Shown here one piece after another: positions 1,630 to 15,975 of a stretch of 64,000 bases of DNA. A program made the position numbers and the translations under genes. Numbering within the stretch: the stretch's first letter is position 1; every line of letters begins with the position of its first letter. Origin of the DNA: Luteibacter yeojuensis (lineage in GTDB: Bacteria > Pseudomonadota > Gammaproteobacteria > Xanthomonadales > Rhodanobacteraceae); NCBI RefSeq assembly GCF_011742875.1, contig NZ_JAAQTL010000001.1, positions 310,001-374,000 on the forward strand. Direction: 5' to 3'. The notes beneath the pieces were generated by a model. That model saw only the letters and a list, made by a program, of their open reading frames with translations. It did not search any database and was not told where the DNA came from.

Positions 1630-1678
1630 GGGCTTTGGAGGCATCCGGAATAACGTGCCGTGCCGGCACGTGGGGCGC

Positions 1679-1800
1679 CCCTCTGTCCTTTTGCCTGAGA
1701 GTTTGGAGGCGTGGAGCCCCTTGCACCTTCGGCGCCGGATCGAACCGGTCTCTCCAGAGTGATGACTGCGCGGTGGTATGGGAGCCTGAGCGATTACGGG
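1679..1800 (-). promoter_or_regulatory. Glycine riboswitch upstream of gcvP
   Basis: Read on the minus strand, 1762 to 1681 gives the aptamer signature: CACTCTGGAGAGACC, then CCGAAGGTGCAAGG, then AACTCTCAGGCAAAAGGACA and a closing GAG. These are the conserved P1/P3 junction blocks of the glycine aptamer. The preceding stretch (about 1800-1763) holds a degenerate CTCAGG that may be the remnant or partner of a first aptamer, but a full tandem pair is not obvious. It sits directly ahead of gcvP, the classic position of an ON switch for glycine degradation. Ligand identity is from family knowledge; the mechanism (terminator or RBS) cannot be read here. Confidence 0.9.
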
Positions 1801-3870: not shown

Positions 3871-3898
3871 CGAAGCCCCGCATCGCTGCGGGGCTTCG
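3871..3898 (-). terminator. Rho-independent terminator, displaced tRNA-Leu terminator at attL
   Basis: Perfect hairpin with 12-bp arms (CGAAGCCCCGCA and its complement) around TCGC, followed on the minus strand by a TTGTTTT stretch. It matches, with one extra base pair, the hairpin at 11721-11740 downstream of the intact tRNA-Leu. It is therefore most simply the original tRNA terminator, pushed 7.8 kb away by the island. Confidence 0.8.
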
Positions 3899-3928
3899 TC
3901 TATAATTGGTGCCCAAGAGAGGACTCGA
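3891..3928. repeat. attL: 38-bp direct repeat, left end of the genomic island
   Basis: The 38 bases at 3891-3928 are identical to 11736-11773. They cover the last 20-odd bases of tRNA-Leu (TGGTGCCCAAGAGAGGACTC, plus strand) and part of the terminator stem. Similarity continues leftward through the hairpin with a single indel. After 3928 the sequence diverges from the tRNA, so this is a 3' fragment and not a gene. This is the classical product of integration into a tRNA 3' end. Confidence 0.93.
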
Positions 3929-4034
3929 TAGACACGCCGCTAAGTTGCTGATTCTATAGCGATCATCGTCAGCGCGCAAGCTTGCTTGTGGACCAGTACG
4001 TGGCAGACATTACGTGCTCGCGGGGGGGGGAGGG

Positions 4035-5141
4035 ATGACGGAATTTGATTACATCGAACATGGTGGACTTCGGGCCGCGCTAGAAAGCGACTACATCGAG
4101 ATGCAGCGCTGCGTTGAGGCCGAGGCGTGGAAGAGCGCGCAGGTCCTTGCAGGCAGCATCGTAGAGAGCCTCCTGATGGACTTCCTAGTATCGCGACCAA
4201 GCGATGGAGGCAAACCGGCCACACTGCGGCTGGACTTTTCTGACGCTATCAAAGAGTGCCTCAAAGAGAAAGCCATAACGGAGAGGACCGCCGACCTCTG
4301 CGCTGTGGTTCGCTCTTACAGAAATCTCATTCATCCCGCGCGCCTCGTGCGCCTGGGTGAGGCGAGCCCCACGAAAGCCTCCTGTGGAATTGCAGTGGGC
4401 CTAATTGACCTAATTACTTCAGAGGTCGGAGATTCGCGGCGCTTGGCGGTGGGCCTAACGGCGGAGCAGGTCCTTGCGAAGGTCGTTGCTGACACCAAAA
4501 GCGGTAGCTTAATGAAGCACCTGCTTTCCGGTGTGCGGGAATCTCATCTTATGAGGCTTGCGAAGGTGCTGTTGCCGGAAGCCCTTGCGGAACACGAGGC
4601 CGAATTCGACGACATAGGGCGAGTTGGGAGACTGACGGCCACGTTCAGGGCGGTCCTCGCAGCATTGCCGCCAGCCCGACAGACCGAAGTCGCCGATGAA
4701 TTCGCGTTACTGGTGCGGCAGGGATCTGAGCAAGAAATTGATCGGTACCGCCGAGGGTTCTTCCGAGCCCCTGACCTCCAGACGGTCAGTCCTCAATATA
4801 GAGATATGGTCAAAGATCATCTTTTGTCTGCACTTGGAGTAGGCGTTCAGATCGCCGACATAAGAGCCGCAACTGGAATCGGACGCTTTCTTTCCACGGG
4901 AGACGCGGCGGTGTGGGTAAATAATCTCGTTCGTGCCACGGTATCCAAGAGCGGCGTGATGCCGGTTCGAAAGTGGATGCACGAGTTCGTAGTAGCAGAG
5001 CACGGGTTTGTCTCGCCTGAGTTCGAACAGGCGGCTTTTGATCGCATGGATAAATCTATCGAGCGGCTCGAAAGGAATGGGGACGCTGTCAACGCCGAGC
5101 TAATCCGATCGACCAAATTGGAGATTGAGATCCCGTTCTAA
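4035..5141 (+). CDS. HEPN-like protein of unknown function (368 aa)
   Basis: First gene of the island. I prefer the ATG at 4035 (MTEFDYIEHGGLRAAL) over the upstream GTG at 4014, because the purine block GGGGGGGGGAGGG lies just ahead of it. The N-terminal 110 residues are helical and end in RSYRNLIHPARL (residues 93-104). The R-x6-H arrangement with an N three residues before the H is typical of HEPN-type RNase or toxin domains and of HEPN-like defence effectors. The remaining 250 residues are helical and unrecognised. It lies ahead of the PARIS-like pair, separated by two tiny frames, so it may be an accessory or independent defence gene. A nuclease role is inference only. Confidence 0.75.
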   Translation: MTEFDYIEHGGLRAALESDYIEMQRCVEAEAWKSAQVLAGSIVESLLMDFLVSRPSDGGKPATLRLDFSDAIKECLKEKAITERTADLCAVVRSYRNLIHPARLVRLGEASPTKASCGIAVGLIDLITSEVGDSRRLAVGLTAEQVLAKVVADTKSGSLMKHLLSGVRESHLMRLAKVLLPEALAEHEAEFDDIGRVGRLTATFRAVLAALPPARQTEVADEFALLVRQGSEQEIDRYRRGFFRAPDLQTVSPQYRDMVKDHLLSALGVGVQIADIRAATGIGRFLSTGDAAVWVNNLVRATVSKSGVMPVRKWMHEFVVAEHGFVSPEFEQAAFDRMDKSIERLERNGDAVNAELIRSTKLEIEIPF

Positions 5142-5218
5142 CCTTGGCTGCGATCATCGCCGAAGAGCGGACTGACGTGTACACGGACTGTATTCACTAA
5201 CTGCAAGAGGGATGCACG

Positions 5219-5410
5219 ATGGCGACAAGTATCAGGAAAGCTGCAAACCGTCTGCGAGCGAAACCTGAGGATGGAGTTGAACGGAAAGCCAAGTGCGCAA
5301 TGGGCTACCTTGCCGACGTCTACCTCCAGTACCGCGATCCAGAGCTGACGGGCGCGGTGATTGCTGCGCAGGTAGCGAGCACGCCGCACATCGAAGAAGC
5401 TTCACTGTAA
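5219..5410 (+). CDS. Small hypothetical protein (63 aa)
   Basis: Short basic protein starting MATSIRKAANRLRAKPEDGV, with a plausible ribosome site (AAGAGG, 5205-5210) nine bases before the ATG. No domain recognised. It lies between the HEPN-like gene and the ATPase, on the same strand. Its coding potential is uncertain because of its length. Confidence 0.45.
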   Translation: MATSIRKAANRLRAKPEDGVERKAKCAMGYLADVYLQYRDPELTGAVIAAQVASTPHIEEASL

Positions 5411-5418
5411 AACTACAG

Positions 5419-5571
5419 ATGAAGCCGGGTAGTAGGAAGCATCCGATGGGCGAAGGGAAAGCGAAAGAATGGGGCGCGACTGTCTTCGGGGCGGTCGGAA
5501 TGGGGCGGCCGGATGCGAGAACTTCGCGCTGCTTTGAGAAGGTGATATCACAGTTACGACAGGGTGGATGA
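5419..5571 (+). CDS. Possible tiny protein overlapping the ATPase start (50 aa)
   Basis: Frame MKPGSRKHPMGEGKAKEW to a stop whose TGA overlaps the ATG of the ATPase at 5568 (ATGA arrangement), as expected for translational coupling. No clear Shine-Dalgarno and no recognisable domain. Reported only because of the coupling geometry and the conserved co-orientation. Confidence 0.25.
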   Translation: MKPGSRKHPMGEGKAKEWGATVFGAVGMGRPDARTSRCFEKVISQLRQGG

Positions 5572-6947
5572 TGACTGCGACGCTGATCACAAGGATGGAA
5601 GTAAGGGACCTCTTTGGCCTCTACGATTATGTTTTGCCTCAAGAGGAGGATCTGAATAATGCAGCCATCCTCTACGGTGATAATGGAGCGGGCAAAAGTA
5701 CGGTGCTCCGGCTTGCATTTCACCTACTCTCTGCCGCGAATAACCGAGGTCATCGCACGGCGCTTTACGCTGCCGACTTCTCGTGCTTGCGTGTGGATCT
5801 TGCGAACGGCTCGGCGCTAATTGCTGAAAGGCTGACGAAGCGGGGCGTAACGTACCTTCGTCTGGCGATCCAGACGAACGGCTCTGACACTGCCGTCTGG
5901 GAATATGCACCTGACAACGAGCGATTGTTCGATGACGAATATCGAGAGGTCTACGTCTATCAAGATGCAAACGGAACCACTCGCAGGCGACTCAGAGCTT
6001 CGCGGCGTCCTGATGGCGTAGCCCATGGTCAGCAACACTATATGGAGGCACTCGGTGCCATCGTGCCAACGGTGTTTATCCTCAGCGCCGATAGAAGGCT
6101 TGATAGTGACGCGGTGTCAGATCCCTCTGATGAGATGGACGTTCGGCGCACCTTGAGCTATGGCGAGCCCAAGAAGCTAAACCAGCTTGTTGCGCGGGCG
6201 CGTGAGATCGCCCTTGCGCAGGCCATGAATAAAGCGTCGCAATGGGTTAGCCGAACTGCGGTGAGCGGAACGAATAGGGGCTCAACTAATGTCCATTCGG
6301 TCTACGCGGATGTTCTGCACAAGATCGCTCCGCCAAGGGGGCGGACTTCCGAAAGCAACGAGCAGCCTGATCTGGCGCAGCTCGTCAGGAAGCTGCGGGA
6401 CATTGATGAGCGGTCGGCGGCGTTGGCTCGATATGAGTTCACCACTCATCTGCCAACGGGTGATTTTCAGAAGGCGTTGTCTACGCGAAGCGCGAAGAAG
6501 GCGGAGCTCGCTGCCAATTTATTGAAGCCTTACGTAAAGAGCGTGGAAAGTAAACTTTCCGCGCTTGAGCCACTTTTTCGGTTGATTGATCGCTTTGTTG
6601 TGATGGTCAACGAAATGCTCAGCGACAAAATTATATCGTATAAGTTGAGTCAGGGTTTCTCGATCGTAAATAGGTTGGGGAAGCCGCTCCGCGCGGAGCA
6701 CCTTTCGTCCGGTGAGCAGCAGCTTCTTCTCCTGCTTTGTTATGTTCTAACGGCACGTGATGCTCCTACCGTTTTCATGATTGATGAACCGGAGCTATCG
6801 TTGAACGTGAAGTGGCAGCGTCAGCTTGTCCAGTCGCTTTTACAGATGACCGACGGCGCCTCCGTCCAATTCTTGTTTGCATCCCATTCGATGGAGCTCT
6901 TGGCTCAACATCGCCACCGCGTTGTCCGGCTGGATCGTCGCCCATGA
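5568..6947 (+). CDS. AriA-like AAA ATPase of a PARIS-type antiphage system
   Basis: ABC/SMC-like ATPase of 459 residues. Walker A is GDNGAGKST (37-45), signature LSSGEQQLLLLL begins near 379, Walker B is VFMIDEPELSLN (D406, E407) and the H-loop is FASHS (H440). This is the AAA_15/AAA_21 architecture of AriA. The downstream gene is a DUF4435 protein whose ATG overlaps this stop (ATGA), the two-gene order of PARIS (Phage Anti-Restriction Induced System). In characterised PARIS, the AriA multimer holds AriB and releases it on sensing a phage anti-restriction protein such as Ocr. Other AAA plus DUF4435 pairs exist, and the trigger here is unknown. Two adjacent ATGs (5568, 5571) could serve as start. 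Confidence 0.85.
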   Translation: MMTATLITRMEVRDLFGLYDYVLPQEEDLNNAAILYGDNGAGKSTVLRLAFHLLSAANNRGHRTALYAADFSCLRVDLANGSALIAERLTKRGVTYLRLAIQTNGSDTAVWEYAPDNERLFDDEYREVYVYQDANGTTRRRLRASRRPDGVAHGQQHYMEALGAIVPTVFILSADRRLDSDAVSDPSDEMDVRRTLSYGEPKKLNQLVARAREIALAQAMNKASQWVSRTAVSGTNRGSTNVHSVYADVLHKIAPPRGRTSESNEQPDLAQLVRKLRDIDERSAALARYEFTTHLPTGDFQKALSTRSAKKAELAANLLKPYVKSVESKLSALEPLFRLIDRFVVMVNEMLSDKIISYKLSQGFSIVNRLGKPLRAEHLSSGEQQLLLLLCYVLTARDAPTVFMIDEPELSLNVKWQRQLVQSLLQMTDGASVQFLFASHSMELLAQHRHRVVRLDRRP

Positions 6948-7783
6948 CTGGGCAAGAACGCTGGCTGATAGAAGAACTAATCGCTCGGTATGAAAATGAA
7001 CCTACTCTTCGTGATGTGTTTGTTGAGGGGGTCTTCGACTGCGAGGTGTTCAATCGCGTGTATGAGGGGCAGGCAAAATGCCCGGTTTTTTACTCAATCG
7101 ACTCAGTAAACGTTTCTCGCGAGGTTCTAGCTAAGTACGGACTAACGCTCGGAAATAGGCAGCGAGTGATAGCTTTAGCTAAAGAGCTCGAAGAACTCCA
7201 GGAGGGCGCGGCTGTCAGGTTTATGGCGGACCGTGACTTAGACCACTGGTTCGCGGGGCTCGAAGAGGTCGTGAGATTGAAGTGGACAATGTTCACGTGT
7301 GTGGAGGCACATTTCCTTACCCCAGAGGCTCTGCGGGAGATCGTGAGGGTCGCTGCGGCTGCCGACGTCACCGACGTCGTACGCTTCGCTAGGTCGATCG
7401 AGTGCGTTCTTCGTGATCTGTATTCCCTACGACTCGTCGATAGGCAGCTGACGCTGAATATGAGTTGGGTTGCCCTCCGTCGGTATCTTAGCCGTCGGAA
7501 AGATGAGGTGATCTTTGACGCCGAGCGGTATATCGATGCGCTGCTCAACAGCAATCAGTTGTTCCGAAGGAAGGCTGAGGTGATTGCGAGTTGGGCGGCG
7601 TGGAAGGGTGCAGACGCTCCTGACTCCCGCCAGGTAATGCAAGGCCACGATCTGACCGAGTTGCTTGCGTGGGCGGTGAGCGCTTTCGGCGGGGTGAAGA
7701 CCTTCGCTAGCACCGAGGCGATTGAGAGGTTGTTCGTCGTTCTCGCGAAAGGGGTGCCGACGCTCGCTGAGGAACTCGTCTAG
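6944..7783 (+). CDS. AriB-like DUF4435 (TOPRIM-type) protein of a PARIS-type system
   Basis: Protein of 279 residues from the ATG at 6944, which overlaps the ATPase stop by four bases. An earlier in-frame ATG at 6812 lies inside the ATPase gene and is not used here. The TOPRIM-like acidic signature is visible: VEGVFD (E28) and FMADRDLDHW (D96, D98, D100), in the spacing typical of DUF4435/OLD-type TOPRIM folds. In known PARIS systems AriB is the toxic effector, a nuclease reported to cut tRNA-Lys. The match here is at fold and operon level, so substrate and activity are inferred. The C-terminal half is helical and unrecognised. Confidence 0.82.
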   Translation: MTGQERWLIEELIARYENEPTLRDVFVEGVFDCEVFNRVYEGQAKCPVFYSIDSVNVSREVLAKYGLTLGNRQRVIALAKELEELQEGAAVRFMADRDLDHWFAGLEEVVRLKWTMFTCVEAHFLTPEALREIVRVAAAADVTDVVRFARSIECVLRDLYSLRLVDRQLTLNMSWVALRRYLSRRKDEVIFDAERYIDALLNSNQLFRRKAEVIASWAAWKGADAPDSRQVMQGHDLTELLAWAVSAFGGVKTFASTEAIERLFVVLAKGVPTLAEELV

Positions 7784-7811
7784 CGACAGCGCTTGGCATC
7801 GCCAGGCTAAA

Positions 7812-7851
7812 GGTACACAATGGACTAACCGTCGTTACGCCATTGTGTACC
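7812..7851. promoter_or_regulatory. Perfect 12-bp inverted repeat at the serine recombinase start
   Basis: Arms GGTACACAATGG (7812-7823) and CCATTGTGTACC (7840-7851) are exact reverse complements separated by 16 bases. The right arm ends one base before the recombinase ATG (7853), so any protein bound there would block its ribosome site. Eleven bases of the same motif (GGTACACAATG) also cover the start codon of the island integrase on the minus strand (11655-11665). Likely roles are an operator or a recombinase binding site; nothing in the sequence chooses between them. Confidence 0.75.
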
Positions 7852-7852
7852 C

Positions 7853-8536
7853 ATGAAGACTGTTGGCTACCTCCGAGTCTCGACTAAGCGTCAGGGAGCC
7901 AGCGGGCTGGGCCTTGAAGCCCAGAAGGCGGCCATCGCTGCGCATGTGACGCAGCGCGGCGCTCAGCTTGTCGATGTATTCGTGGAAGTGGAGAGCGGCG
8001 GGTCGAGCGACCGGCCGGAGCTGCTCAAGGCTCTTCATCTCGCCAAGGTCACGGGTTCCACGCTGGTGATCGCGAAGCTCGATCGTCTGTCGCGCAACGC
8101 GGCGTTTCTGCTGGCACTTCGGGACAGCGGAGTACGCTTCGTCGCGGCGGACATGCCGGATGCCAATGACCTCACGGTAGGGATCATGGCGCTGGTGGCT
8201 GAGCAGGAGCGGCAAGCCATTTCCAGCCGCACCAAAGATGCTCTGAGGGCCGCGAAGGCTCGCGGGGTGGTGCTGGGCAATCCCAACGGTGCCGAGGCGC
8301 TCAGGCGAGCGTCTAAGGGCAACGCGGCTAGTCTTGAAGCCATCAAGCGAGTTGCTGATGACCACGCACGAGACCTTCGCCCCGTCGTGGACGAACTGCG
8401 CTTGCTGGGAGTGACAGGGCTAGGCTCATTGGCGGCAGCGCTCAACGGCAAAGGCATCCTGACGCCGCGCGGGGCGAGGTGGCACAAGACAAGTGTTCGG
8501 AACCTATTGGAGCGTCAGTCGGCCTTGAGGAACTAG
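7853..8536 (+). CDS. Serine recombinase (resolvase/invertase family)
   Basis: Small serine recombinase of 227 residues. The resolvase domain starts at the N-terminus with YLRVSTKRQ (nucleophile S10), continues with KLDRLSRNAAFLLALRDSGV (the arginine-containing active-site segment) and a long E-helix (MALVAEQERQAISSRTKDALRAAKARG), and ends in a C-terminal DNA-binding region including AALNGKGILTPRG. Size and layout match Tn3/Gin-like or pin-type recombinases, not the large phage integrases. It follows the PARIS-like pair by 70 bases. A perfect inverted repeat overlaps its start region. It may invert or resolve DNA in the island; the neighbouring repeat array is a possible substrate, which is inference. 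Confidence 0.92.
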   Translation: MKTVGYLRVSTKRQGASGLGLEAQKAAIAAHVTQRGAQLVDVFVEVESGGSSDRPELLKALHLAKVTGSTLVIAKLDRLSRNAAFLLALRDSGVRFVAADMPDANDLTVGIMALVAEQERQAISSRTKDALRAAKARGVVLGNPNGAEALRRASKGNAASLEAIKRVADDHARDLRPVVDELRLLGVTGLGSLAAALNGKGILTPRGARWHKTSVRNLLERQSALRN

Positions 8537-9734
8537 CTCGGAGAGCCGCACGGCCTGACGGTGACGGTGCGCGGCTCAGTGGTGATCGAGCGATGACCGC
8601 GACAATGGCCGTAGCGAAGCTCAGTGATGGCACGCTTACAACGGAACCAAGCACTCACCCGCTTGCCTTGGCTTAGCGCCTGATCGACGCGACGAGGCGT
8701 GCTGTCTCTTTGCCGAGACGGATCGAATCTGCAACCGAGGAACTGGCGTCGCGGATGTGTGTCAGCTCCGCGTTGGTCATGGCGGCATCGCCGGGCGAGA
8801 GATCGGGCCACGTATGCACCTGCGGCGAGGGCTGTGACAGGCTGGGGTACAGGGGGGGGAATGAGGTAGGTCTACCGTTCGATACCCCAGCGGAAATCTT
8901 TCCAGAATATTTTGCGTCTCCCTTGAGGTCCTACAGACTTCCAGCCATGGGAGTGGGGGGGGCAGTTGCCTCCTACGCCACCTTAGGTCGTCTCTCTAGC
9001 CACGTGAGCCACGATGGCTCCTTAGCAAACCGTGGGAGGTTTTCGGGGTGGGAACTACGGCCCCGCTAGGTTCGTGGTTATACCCACCTAGAGGGGAGGG
9101 GGTCGATGACCACTACCGGGAGAATCCTGTGGAGACCTAGCGGCCCTTAGGCTCATTAGGAGTCCCTAGGGTAGGCAACTACGTTCCCCCTAGGATCGCA
9201 GTTATACCCGCTGTGCGGGGAGAACGAGGATGAGCAGAGGGAGTGAGCCATATGGAGGCCTCATGACCCTCAAGGAACCTTTAAGGGAGGGAACTACGTT
9301 CCCCCTAGGCTTCGTGTTTTATCCGGCTGACCTGGGGAGGGCTCTGGTGCTCAGCCTTAAGTGTCGAAAGAGCCTTTACGTCTCTATAGGGGACTCTCTC
9401 AGTATCCTCTCCCACCTTCCTCCTATGCTGTGACTTATATCTACAACCCCCCTTGGTGTCCATCTTGGCTCTTCAGGTGACCTAAGGAGCCTTAAGGAGC
9501 CTTAAGGAATCCTTCGGGAGGGAACTACGTTCCTCCTATGTTCCGACTTTTATTCTCACCACCGGTTGCGGCGGTCGAGAGGTCGCAGAAGCCGGAACGG
9601 TCCCTCAGGAATCCTAAGGAGCCCTTAGCATTCCTTTGGATATCCCTCAGTGCTTCGCTCCTATGCTGCATGTTTTATTATTCCCGGCGCCGGAGCAGGC
9701 GCTTAGCTCGCTCACAGCGGGCCGCTTCCCTTAA
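8537..9734. other. Non-coding zone of the island holding a periodic repeat array
   Basis: About 1.2 kb between the recombinase and the integrase without a credible gene: frames through it are short and of odd composition. From about 9050 to 9690 it carries about six degenerate ~118-bp repeat units (listed separately). It is unusually rich in the palindromes CCTAGG, CCTTAAGG and CCTAAGG, and in G-runs of eight (8852-8859 and 8955-8962). Confidence 0.8.
9050..9685. repeat. Array of about six degenerate ~118-bp repeat units
   Basis: The best-conserved box opens with GGGAACTACGTTCCCCCTAG and continues with a TCG, a TTAT/TTTAT block and a C-rich end, 36 bases in all. Full boxes lie at 9050-9085, 9174-9209, 9289-9324 and 9520-9555. 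Partial boxes lacking the GGGAAC half lie near 9412-9441 and 9650-9683. Aligned on one internal position, the spacings are 124, 115, 118, 113 and 124 bases. In the full copies GGGAAC can pair with GTTCCC around a TAC loop; the copies at 9050 and 9174 vary within this stem. The DNA between boxes is rich in CCTTAAGG-like palindromes. No family recognised. Confidence 0.75.
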
Positions 9735-11657
9735 TCAGCCGACGCGAGGTTTGCGTGTCGCATACGAGCGCCCGCTGTCGTCGGTGCTCCGGCACTCGGC
9801 AAGGAGGGCGCGGAGCCCCTTGATGTCAATGCCAAAATCCAGACCGCTTAGCGCCTCGTGATGCCTGTGGCGGGGGACTTGCAACGCGTGCTCGTACACG
9901 CCGCCAGTCGCGTCAGATGTCGCGTGGCCGACAATACTGTTCAGCGCGCCGTCGTCCAGAAGCCCTCGGCATGAGGTCTTGAACGTGTGCCTGAAGGAGT
10001 GGAATACCTTCACGTTCTTGACGTAAAGGCCGAGCATTTCGGTATAGGCCTTGAAATCGTCGGTTACCTTTCCCGCCGGATCATCCTTGCGCACCGGTGT
10101 CCACAGCGCCTGCGTGGCGCCGATATCCTCTCGGCGGTGTCGAATGAGATCCCAAATCCCAAGATCGATCAGATGAGGGTGCAATGGGATCGCACGGGAT
10201 GCCTGTGCCGTCTTTAGCGTCCGAAGGTGGTTTGGCTGGATCAGGATGACGGGAGTTTCATCGTCGCTGGCCGCGTGGACCGGCTCGAAGTCGGACACGA
10301 GCAGGCCGCCCAGCTCGTTGAGTCGGGCACCGGTGTAGGTTGCGAGCACGAGAAGCCAGGGGAAGTACGTATAGCGCTGCGCCTTGGACCGCCGGCCTTT
10401 CTGATTCCGACTGTCCAAGAACCTACGGAGGTTGTCCGGATGCAGCAGTGTGCGGATTTCTTCCTTGGTCCATGCTTCGCGCGGCGCCTGCGCGCCGCCC
10501 TCTGGCAGGAAGGCCCCTAGGCCCTGAGCGGGCGACTTATCAATGAGATGCTCTTCGGTGCACCAACGAAAGAAGCTCTTGATACGGTCGATGGACTCCG
10601 CCACGCGGGTCTTCGATTGCATGGCGTCCAGCGCGATGGTGGCCGAGGCTAGCTGCGCGACGGTCATCCCGCGATAGGCTGCGGTGCCTCTGCGCGGGCG
10701 CCTGTTCGCGAAGGCCTCGAACGCCGACAGGTCTTTACGCGTGAAACTCGTTAGTTGCCTCGACTCCCCGACAAGACCGCTGAAGTCCTCATAGGCGAGC
10801 CGTGCGCTATCGGGGACCGCGTTTTTCCATGCCGCTTGCCTAGCGCTCTGTGCCTTTGTGTAGCGGCTCCACGCGTCGCCTAGGGATATACCGCTGCCGC
10901 CCGCGCGAGGCTCGCTGATGAGCACTGGGGGCGCCTCAGAGACTGTCTCCGCAGTGGCTGAAGTCGACGAGCCAACAGCGGCGTGAACAGGCTTGGCGGC
11001 CGAGGGGCGCAGGTGCTCCAGCGTTCGACCAGGTTCTTCCGAGGCCACTGATTTTGCGTAGTACAGACTCGCAGCTTCGGGCAGCCAAGTCTGGATCAGG
11101 TCGCGTCCGGACACGGCGTCGAGACTGTCGTAGGTGGCACGCTCAATGAGCGGCGACCAGTCTGAGGCGTCGTCATCCGGCGCTACCTCAGTAGCGAGTT
11201 CGACGGCGCGAGCCCGAGCCCGTGTCAGTGCTTGCCCGGTGGCAGAAATGCAGTGCACATCGGTCACGGAGGGCGGCAGGATGGCCTCGGCGAGCTCGCG
11301 GTACTCGTCGCCCATTGCATCGCACCCGGCACCATAGGCCGCCAACGACATGCTCCCTAGCCCAGTCTCGATCAGCCGCCGGACCTCACCGTCCCTGTCA
11401 ATCATCCTTGCCTTCCAATCACGGACAAGGCGGTCGATCTCGGTGCGGGGGAGGTGCTTCATGAGTCTGCGAACGTGCGAGAAGAACTGACGAATCTGGT
11501 AAGCGAGGTAGCCAGCCTTGAGGATCGCGGCCCGCTGACTCCCTTCGAACAGCGACAGCCGCAGCTCAGTGCATCCGATGACCTCTTTAAGCGTCAATGG
11601 AACCCTGAGGCGGAGGTGATACGTCTCGTTCCTCAGGAGCAGGTAGGAGGGGCGCAT
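9735..11657 (-). CDS. Tyrosine recombinase / integrase (DUF6538 N-terminus, 640 aa)
   Basis: Site-specific integrase that would catalyse insertion into the adjacent tRNA-Leu. The start is taken at ATG 11657 (MRPSYLLLRNETYHLRLRVP), the usual opening of DUF6538-type integrases; an upstream in-frame ATG at 11729 would add 24 residues that run into the tRNA terminator. A long central region holds a core-binding SAM-like domain (FTRKDLSAFEAFANRR). The C-terminal catalytic domain shows ATYTGARLNELGGLL (Arg), the HSFRHTFKT box (H-x-x-R) and GHATSDATGGVYEHAL (Tyr). It reads away from the tRNA. GGTACACAATG on the minus strand includes its start codon, the same motif as at the serine recombinase start. 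Confidence 0.93.
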   Translation of the reverse strand: MRPSYLLLRNETYHLRLRVPLTLKEVIGCTELRLSLFEGSQRAAILKAGYLAYQIRQFFSHVRRLMKHLPRTEIDRLVRDWKARMIDRDGEVRRLIETGLGSMSLAAYGAGCDAMGDEYRELAEAILPPSVTDVHCISATGQALTRARARAVELATEVAPDDDASDWSPLIERATYDSLDAVSGRDLIQTWLPEAASLYYAKSVASEEPGRTLEHLRPSAAKPVHAAVGSSTSATAETVSEAPPVLISEPRAGGSGISLGDAWSRYTKAQSARQAAWKNAVPDSARLAYEDFSGLVGESRQLTSFTRKDLSAFEAFANRRPRRGTAAYRGMTVAQLASATIALDAMQSKTRVAESIDRIKSFFRWCTEEHLIDKSPAQGLGAFLPEGGAQAPREAWTKEEIRTLLHPDNLRRFLDSRNQKGRRSKAQRYTYFPWLLVLATYTGARLNELGGLLVSDFEPVHAASDDETPVILIQPNHLRTLKTAQASRAIPLHPHLIDLGIWDLIRHRREDIGATQALWTPVRKDDPAGKVTDDFKAYTEMLGLYVKNVKVFHSFRHTFKTSCRGLLDDGALNSIVGHATSDATGGVYEHALQVPRHRHHEALSGLDFGIDIKGLRALLAECRSTDDSGRSYATRKPRVG

Positions 11658-11677
11658 TGTGTACCAGTCTGTGTACC
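11655..11677 (-). promoter_or_regulatory. GGTACACA motif pair over the integrase start codon
   Basis: On the minus strand GGTACACAGACT is followed directly by GGTACACAATG, whose last three bases are the proposed integrase start codon. The second copy matches 11 of the 12 bases of the inverted repeat arms at 7812-7851. This points to a common binding protein for both island recombinases or to an integrase/excisionase arm site. Confidence 0.55.
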
Positions 11678-11720
11678 AAACGTGGACCAAGCGCGTCTTT
11701 CTGAATCCCAGATACAACAA

Positions 11721-11740
11721 AGCCCGCATCGCTGCGGGCT
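11721..11740 (-). terminator. Rho-independent terminator after tRNA-Leu
   Basis: Hairpin AGCCCGCA - TCGC - TGCGGGCT (8-bp arms), followed on the minus strand by TTGTTGT. It lies 11 bases after the tRNA CCA end. It is a near copy of the hairpin at 3871-3898 and was presumably supplied by the island att site. Confidence 0.75.
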
Positions 11741-11751
11741 TCGTCTATAAT

Positions 11752-11836
<85 letters not shown>

Positions 11837-15699: not shown

Positions 15700-15857
15700 G
15701 CGGGAGCCGCTTCGGCGGCGATGGGTGCTCGCGGCGACCTTGCCCGCTGCCGCGGGATCGCCGGCACAGCCGGCTCCCACGGTTTGCCGGCACAGCCGGC
15801 TCCCACGGTCTGCCGGCACAGTCGGCTCCCACGGTCTGCCGGCCCCCACGCTCTGTG
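15700..15857. repeat. REP-type element with tandem half-repeat expansion
   Basis: Starts as a standard genome repeat (GGGAGCCGCTTCGGCGGCGA near 15702), then the right half, GCCGGCACAGCCGGCTCCCA plus CGGTTT or CGGTCT, is repeated about three times as a 26-bp unit between 15758 and 15846, with single-base drift (CAGCCGG to CAGTCGG). A short minisatellite born from one REP arm. Confidence 0.8.
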
Positions 15858-15926
15858 GTGCCGGTCAGCGGGGGGTTACGCGCGTGATGTAGGATATTGG
15901 GAGGATCGGCGCAAGGCCGGTCCGCT

Positions 15927-15975
15927 CGCGGGGACGACCCCGCGATGCGCATCATCTCCGCGGGGACAACCCCGC
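15927..15975 (+). promoter_or_regulatory. Guanidine-II (mini-ykkC) riboswitch upstream of gdx
   Basis: Two GC-rich hairpins: CGCGGGG-ACGA-CCCCGCG (15927-15944) and GCGGGG-ACAA-CCCCGC (15960-15975), joined by 15 bases and followed within 20 bases by the gdx start. Paired stems with ACGR loops are the defining features of guanidine-II RNAs, which sense free guanidinium and often control SMR exporters. The first loop fits exactly; the second is ACAA, with A in place of the conserved G. The ribosome site (GGAG, 15982-15985) lies just after the second hairpin, so translational control is plausible. Confidence 0.85.

Follow-up and report, generated by a model that had tools for sequence, protein, structure and literature searches.

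Putative tandem promoters for T7-type phage RNA polymerases, each with a different specificity segment, in an integrative island of Luteibacter yeojuensis

The stretch of Luteibacter yeojuensis DNA analysed here (64 kb in full length, called the window below) contains an integrative island at positions 3891-11773. It is 7.88 kb long and is bounded by a 38-bp perfect direct att repeat at tRNA-Leu (Table 1). An integrase and direct-repeat att ends at a tRNA are features of phage satellites. Core genes known from satellites include P4 alpha, psu, sid and others of the kind. The island ORFs scanned gave no PHROG or Pfam match to genes of this type, no virion family and no ParB-like match; as no P4 core gene is recognised, membership of the P4-like satellites is not claimed for the island. 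No RNA polymerase (RNAP) gene of the phage type was found in the L. yeojuensis genome. Relatives of the integrase are rare: they occur in two of 147 family genomes (this one included), and eight proteins, the integrase itself among them, are found at E<=1e-30. The other locus with a relative (L003) lacks the promoter box described below, and a scan of the genome contig collection for integrase relatives gave none.

The cargo includes an ATPase and a 279-aa protein whose genes overlap. The detection rule for PARIS, as set out in a section of PMC9122126, uses a threshold of 27 for AAA_21 and of 27 for PF14491 (DUF4435). The island ATPase has an AAA_21 domain (87.1 bits), which places it in the AAA_15/AAA_21 group of ATPases to which AriA belongs, and it matches solved AriA at E=4.4e-12. 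The 279-aa protein has no PF14491 match in its own sequence; this family is matched by six of 34 aligned relatives at E<=0.1, and some relatives are named DUF4435. Its profile matches solved AriB weakly (E=0.12); for its predicted fold (pLDDT 95) the best match is AriB (E=9.2e-8, TM 0.67). Given the AriA match, the relatives named DUF4435 and the predicted-fold match, the cargo is, as judged from sequence and modelled structure, probably a PARIS-type AriA/AriB pair.

Between the genes of the two recombinases lies a repeat array. It is non-coding and functional-looking, as the initial annotation had described it, and its four long copies are found at 9034, 9158, 9273 and 9504. The partial boxes noted at the same time are real: a 42-nt repeat family has members at 9414 and 9527, and the sixth box, near 9650, is recovered through the core pattern (9660). 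The part conserved in all six units begins about 15 bases inside the box as originally drawn. On the plus strand the core is CCTAKG-N-T-NNNNN-TTWTA, with G as first base in unit 1; on the minus strand it is TAWAA-NNNNN-A-N-C-N-TAGG (about TAWAA-NNNNN-ARCNTAGG), and +1 is the first G of TAGG. Each box thus has an AT-rich block (-16 to -12), a variable 5-nt spacer (-11 to -7) and an initiation block (-6 to about +6) which is common to all six units and contains the TA-GG start. A 65-sequence alignment describes a conserved directional motif from about -17 to +6 with a GG start, and 6/6 window boxes are found, promoter 1 with TAGC at its start.

All six boxes of the window lie in the array (region 9050..9685) on one strand. 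The predicted start sites are spaced at 124, 115, 118, 113 and 125 nt, and the six spacers are all different. The pattern CCTANGNTNNNNNTTWTA, with at most one mismatch, has six matches in 64 kb against 0.11 expected, a number reached in none of 100 shuffles. A spacer-blind matrix, trained in part on the window boxes themselves, has six matches in the island against a Markov mean of 0.01 and a maximum of 1 in 200. Elsewhere in the L. yeojuensis genome no box is found at E<=1. The DNA between the boxes has diverged; the six cores are all recognisable, that of promoter 1 with a changed start. Tandem satellite DNA and a decayed coding gene were rejected as explanations: neither a long ORF nor coding homology across the boxes was seen. 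Between the array and the serine recombinase gene are two runs of eight G (8852-8859 and 8955-8962), which are possible slippage sites.

Table 1. Features of the island, with predicted promoter elements listed from left to right within the array
Feature	Position	Strand	Remarks
att repeat, left end	3891..3928		38-bp perfect direct repeat
375-aa protein	4014..5141	+	weak sub-threshold DUF4145
AriA-like AAA_21 ATPase	5568..6947	+	PARIS-type
AriB-like 279-aa protein	6944..7783	+	gene overlaps AriA gene by 4 nt
Short serine recombinase	7853..8536	+	resolvase domain, partial Recombinase domain
48-aa leftward ORF past array	8673..8819	-	no Pfam match; no clear ribosome-binding site by eye
Putative promoter 1	9053..9084	-	+1 9066, spacer CCACG; weakest copy (TAGC, not TAGG)
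Putative promoter 2	9177..9208	-	+1 9190, spacer CTGCG
5' leader hairpin, promoter 3	9287..9305	-	GGGGGAAC-GUA-GUUCCC type, -11.1 kcal/mol
Putative promoter 3	9292..9323	-	+1 9305, spacer CACGA
Putative promoter 4	9410..9441	-	+1 9423, spacer GTCAC
Short repeats, promoter 5 leader	9481..9517	-	CCTTAAGG/CCTTAGG, 10-nt spacing
5' leader hairpin, promoter 5	9517..9536	-	-8.2 kcal/mol
Putative promoter 5	9523..9554	-	+1 9536, spacer GTCGG
Putative promoter 6	9648..9679	-	+1 9661, spacer CATGC
Tyrosine integrase	9735..11729	-	DUF6538 domain; promoters' strand, upstream of promoters
att repeat, right end	11736..11773		overlaps tRNA-Leu 3' end
tRNA-Leu (CAG)	11752..11836	-	integration site

Downstream of the core, several units continue with a 5' hairpin and then with CCTAAGG-type (CCTTAAGG-type) repeats. 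Palindromes of this type had been reported between the boxes and are indeed there: six exact copies of CCTTAAGG lie in 8980-9665 (minus strand), none in the other 7162 bp of the island and three in 12000-63990 of the window. The GGGAAC/GTTCCC stem proposed with them is complete in the units at 9305 and 9536 and imperfect in those at 9066 and 9190. Across the collected leaders the hairpin folds in 29 of 72 (near-duplicates L100 and L101 included) against 19.5 expected from shuffles, and the stem shows some compensatory variation (GGAAAC/GTTTCC, GGAAGC/GCTTCC, GGGAAC/GTTCCC). A structured RNA, one of the possibilities raised at the outset, is not supported as the main nature of the array; the stem is rather an accessory leader hairpin in a minority of the boxes. 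The leader of promoter 6, GGAGCGAAGC, resembles those promoters of phage contigs L105 and L145 which point away from the RNAP gene.

The initial annotation had held that no known repeat type fits the array. The core does correspond to one: it has the form of a promoter of T7-family phage RNAPs, on the minus strand. T7-type promoters share with the window boxes the footprint (about -17 to +6), the AT-rich upstream block and the TA-GG start. They also resemble the wider set of boxes in that, in phages, a box is found upstream of the RNAP gene, and in that some have a 5' leader hairpin. The window boxes differ in lying in a bacterial island without an RNAP gene, in being six in tandem, and in having specificity segments that are all different.

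The boxes are neither confined to one strain nor the remains of a decayed gene, the two outcomes that the initial annotation had named as refuting its reading. A two-box pattern finds one further genome among 398 of the order, G139 (locus L005), which has seven boxes at about 57-nt spacing and one lone box. A 30-nt model built from these 14 boxes (window and G139), before any RNAP was examined, matches 13 of 233 family genomes at E<=0.05 per genome. Chance matches are expected at this threshold across 233 genomes, but in all 13 either the spacer-blind scan finds at least two boxes or RNAP sequence adjoins the box. Clusters of boxes are seen again in several genera. A 65-box model (R2, using 65 of 69 boxes) matches ten of 398 order genomes at E<=0.01, all in one family (f1), which is probably the host family, Rhodanobacteraceae.

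Other collections were searched as well. Two-box patterns have no match in the viral contig collection. The single-box pattern has eight there, in contigs of 35-44% GC, and these were judged to be chance matches; only L025 has a second copy, with two mismatches. The two-box pattern has 13 matches in the genome contig collection, 12 of them in DNA of 25-43% GC, and L013 (Pseudomonas umsongensis, 60% GC), with two near-identical copies, was judged unrelated by eye. Whole-array blastn against phages and plasmids gave no match, and a single 10-bit match in Xanthomonas phage f20-Xaj (Autographiviridae) was put down to chance.

The boxes go together with T7-like RNAPs. Of the 13 box genomes, four have complete T7-like RNAP genes and two have RNAP fragments. 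RNAP sequence is present in seven of 233 genomes (fragments in three of the seven; G013 and G140 are examples), and one RNAP match is from Dyella silvatica. Boxes occur in six of the seven genomes with RNAP sequence and in seven of the 226 without (p=5.6e-8), a test that is not fully independent because the G031 and G140 boxes lie in or beside RNAP fragments. G425, G071, G481 and G049 carry their boxes within T7-like prophages that encode a PF00940 RNAP. All four have a box upstream of the RNAP gene; G425, G071 and G481 have one inside it, and G425 and G071 have one upstream of a 523-aa gene which, from its position, we take to encode the head-tail connector. Phage contigs that were obtained later and stand outside the models have a box upstream of the RNAP gene in five of six cases with upstream DNA (L141, L142, L144, L146 and L150, of which L141 and L146 are near-duplicates; L145 has none).

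The 5-nt spacer region is the specificity region of T7 promoters, and T7 RNAP reads it strictly; near-match spacers may therefore not be tolerated. Within seven phages and prophages the spacer is identical in 12 of 20 box pairs (permutation mean 0.45; 0 of 20000 reach 12), and it differs between phages. This test omits L100 and L101 (near-duplicates of G425 and G071), the single-box L105 and G140, and the phage contigs obtained later. Exceptions among the phages are G049, with three spacers in three boxes, and G071 and G481, with one deviant box each. Nine satellite-type loci have an identical spacer in one of 100 pairs (permutation mean 2.3, not significantly low); repetition as low as this is also what random sampling of the pool can give, so that diversity alone is no proof of selection. 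A repeated spacer is found in six of seven phages versus one of nine satellite-type loci (p=0.009), and the eight spacers of G139 are all distinct.

Different satellite-type loci have 15 spacers in common against 6.3 expected (30 of 5000 shuffles reach 15), and eight of their 43 spacers are found in the phage set against 3.9 expected (66 of 5000). Given this excess of shared spacers, satellite-type loci seem to draw, at the level of sequence, from a common pool. The GTCGG spacer of promoter 5 is shared by G031, G014, phage contigs L104 and L144 and the prophage remnant G140. The other five window spacers (CCACG, CTGCG, CACGA, GTCAC, CATGC) have no exact partner in the phage set. Within the prophages, the promoters at G071:C1:835475 (-), G481:C1:92553 (+) and G049:C212:53749 (+) have a spacer unlike the other promoters of their locus. 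In G071 and G481 the odd promoter precedes a similar small ORF (by eye), as if suited to being switched on by a foreign RNAP. The spacer of the promoter at L145:2495 (-) differs from that of the stretch inside the L145 loop.

The RNAP alignment has 34 rows, all at least 73% identical to the query, and some of them represent the same protein. Over the full length of the protein, the most variable 17-residue segment starts at residues 667-673. Comparison with T7 identifies this segment as the specificity loop, and it has 28 distinct forms in the 34 rows. A scan finds a promoter-like stretch within the loop codons themselves in ten of 12 phage contigs with the loop and in three of four prophages (L100-L104, L141, L142, L144, L146, L150, G425, G071 and G481); L143, L145 and G049 have a similar but weaker stretch by eye. 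No T7 promoter is seen by eye in the loop codons of T7. The loop stretch and the promoter ahead of the RNAP gene have the same spacer in eight of 11 non-redundant phages (G049 by eye). The match between spacer and loop is supported by the statistics and the loop codons, the exceptions being L103 and L142, which mismatch, and L150, which agrees at four of five bases.

If the satellite boxes are RNAP promoters, their spacers should be writable in loop codons though they are non-coding. Read in the loop codon frame, 35 of 43 satellite spacers give dipeptides of real RNAP loops against 19.4 expected, a value reached in 0 of 5000 column shuffles. The result holds without the window (29/37, p=0.0002) and for distinct spacers only (23/31, p=0.0002), and becomes 34/42 without a captured RNAP piece in G031; the two other frames give p=0.22 and 0.07. 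The six window spacers translate to TT, TA, TR, SH, SR and TC, all of which occur in RNAP loops. Adjacent spacer columns depend on each other at N1-N2 (p=0.0006) and N3-N4 (p=0.0002), with no dependence at N2-N3 (p=0.54). We regard the codon-frame test as the strongest evidence for the array as a putative panel of promoters for different RNAPs.

Five related elements (G139, G031, G084, G014 and G121) resemble the window in having mixed-specificity arrays on one strand. A common 72-aa protein and a ParB-like protein are encoded directly downstream of the array or box cluster in all five; in G121, which lies at a contig end, the core operon is visible only in part. An AlpA-like protein is common to G139, G031, G084 and G014, and related integrases are found in G139, G031, G084 and G121. 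G139, G031 and G014 encode gp14-like virion proteins, and G139 and G031 a second virion-like protein (phrog_308), which from its position we take to be gp13; both are related to those of the T7-like prophages. The window island has no protein in common with these five elements at E<=1e-6. An integrase lies beside tRNA-Leu in the window, G139, G031, G084 and G036, and integrase fragments do so in G019. In G481b a tRNA-Leu is about 3 kb from the boxes and no integrase is recognised; no tRNA is present in the stretches of G014 and G121 examined. The nine satellite-type loci include G481b, G019 and G036 (the last at a contig end) as box clusters without a core operon, which are satellites by analogy only. 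All 43 satellite-type boxes lie on one strand within their element, and this is the integrase strand in the window, G139, G031, G084, G121 and G036. In G084 the boxes form two clusters, the first preceding the core operon and the second next to the integrase; the genes between them are on the opposite strand. The window looks like the integrase-side part alone: cargo and array, and no core operon. The array of G031 (G031:C23:87845-87991) includes a captured piece of a phage RNAP, residues 684-732, which starts at the loop-internal promoter.

The array probably consists of six tandem minus-strand promoters for T7-family single-subunit RNAPs of T7-like phages of the host family. Since the boxes have common blocks and a different 5-nt segment, each promoter should serve the RNAP of a different phage group. 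Promoter identity and mixed specificity are supported by the sequence comparisons; activation of the element would proceed as follows. An infecting T7-like phage would supply the RNAP, which the host genome lacks. It would fire the cognate promoter, and the resulting leftward transcription would activate the element, through transcription as such and perhaps through primer synthesis for replication or transfer. In the related satellite-like elements the array would switch on the downstream core operon. Leftward of the array in the island there is no convincing gene, only the 48-aa ORF, and the cargo genes face the opposite way. Candidate outputs would be this ORF, an antisense RNA across the cargo or, if the island is circular, the integrase in sense. 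Several specificities would allow one element to respond to many phages. With moderate confidence, we extend this to a general proposal: mobile elements would maintain collections of orthogonal phage promoters, with one promoter for each RNAP specificity, taken from different T7-like phages and used as broad sensors or traps, and in the phages the code would be written twice, in promoters and in loop codons.

The initial annotation had offered a decoy and an origin-like region among its explanations, and both are live options. T7-type promoters also prime replication, and the short repeats near the left end of T7, named SRL, have a genome-end role. In the T7 genome (NC_001604) regularly spaced CCTAAAG-type repeats at 175-355, mostly 12-13 nt apart, adjoin the phiOL promoter at 405. 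The window is similar in placing regularly spaced repeats by a promoter; they differ in their 10-nt spacing and in reading CCTTAAGG/CCTTAGG rather than CCTAAAG. An origin or packaging role is therefore plausible: the units may copy a T7-type genome-end module, at which a helper RNAP would prime replication or concatemer processing of the excised island. This overlaps with the promoter reading, and we regard it as tentative. It suits the window array, which is enriched in CCTAAGG-type repeats, and the phage RNAP promoter leaders with CCTAAAG/CCTAAGG repeats at 10-12 nt (L104, L103, G049), but clear repeats are absent from some window units, and of 20 elements scanned for clusters of at least four regularly spaced repeats, the window, G481a, L103 and L104 alone have them. 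The literature found on CCTAAAG repeats is unrelated; in a passage of PMC6918029, for example, CCTAAAG is part of a primer. A decoy would be a different function for the same promoters: as strong promoters they would draw phage RNAP into useless antisense transcription and lower phage yield, alongside PARIS. This is possible but rather unlikely. The PARIS-type pair, the dearth of leftward genes past the array, and six specificities without a resident RNAP, which would make a broad trap, all suit it. Against it, the array directly precedes a conserved operon in five related elements, all boxes point one way, which a titration site would not need, and six single-copy sites are few in the face of phage replication.

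That the array is a relic, namely promoters left over from decayed prophages and gathered beside the integrase without present function, is improbable. Captured or broken RNAP genes do exist (the G031 piece that starts at an internal promoter, the fragments in G013 and G140), and the core operon of the related elements is absent from the window island; yet all six cores have stayed recognisable while the DNA between them diverged, six specificities are hard to derive from one decayed phage, and the clusters recur across genera. We give very little credence to an operator array for another DNA-binding protein, such as integrase arm sites or sites for a ParB-like protein or a repressor. A directional repeated 18-bp motif adjoins the integrase, and a ParB-like gene follows the array in the five related elements. 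However, the motif is the same in the window, which has no ParB-like match in the ORFs scanned and no common protein at E<=1e-6, and the codon-frame match of spacers to RNAP loops has no reason if the boxes are operators. Least probable is a structured non-coding RNA family or a CRISPR/attC-like array. The whole array folds with a modest advantage over shuffled sequences (z -2.5 and -2.9, 20 shuffles each) and some units have the hairpin, but the conserved part is linear with a variable spacer, most boxes lack the hairpin, and no Rfam covariance model reaches its gathering score in the array. The repeats are 64-74% alike, too divergent for CRISPR, and no cas family is among the matches listed for the island ORFs.

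Much of what surrounds the promoter reading is already known: T7-type promoters, RNAP-promoter orthogonality, T7-like phages with temperate features, satellites, and PARIS in satellites. LUZ100 is a T7-like phage with temperate features whose RNAP and promoter form one such orthogonal pair, and passages of its description (PMC10134795) place a phage promoter in front of the RNAP gene. The LUZ100 promoters differ in sequence from the boxes, most having AATTACCACACAG. P4-like satellites resemble the island as small integrase-bearing elements at a tRNA with anti-phage cargo. We know of no counterpart of the promoter array in them. PARIS was described from P4-like satellites with defence hotspots, according to part of Rousset et al. 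2022 (PMC9122126). P4-like satellites have P2 as helper, whereas the island's helper would be a T7-like phage. In the open-access literature, no report joining satellites with phage RNAP promoters was found.

If the promoter reading is true, satellite-like elements and defence islands can listen to phage RNAPs, and to many phages at once, by means of stacked promoters. This would account for the ability of one element to follow several helpers or enemies; the island itself could react to many different viruses on infection, or trap them. RNAP-promoter coevolution would become readable from genomes, and natural sets of orthogonal T7-type promoters and RNAPs would be at hand. The loop-internal promoter raises the question of whether one DNA stretch encodes both the reader and what the reader reads.

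Outside the island, the window contains a glycine riboswitch at 1673-1767 (-) and a guanidine-II riboswitch at 15926-15974 (+). A 26-bp tandem repeat of about three copies (96% matching) is found at 15760-15843.
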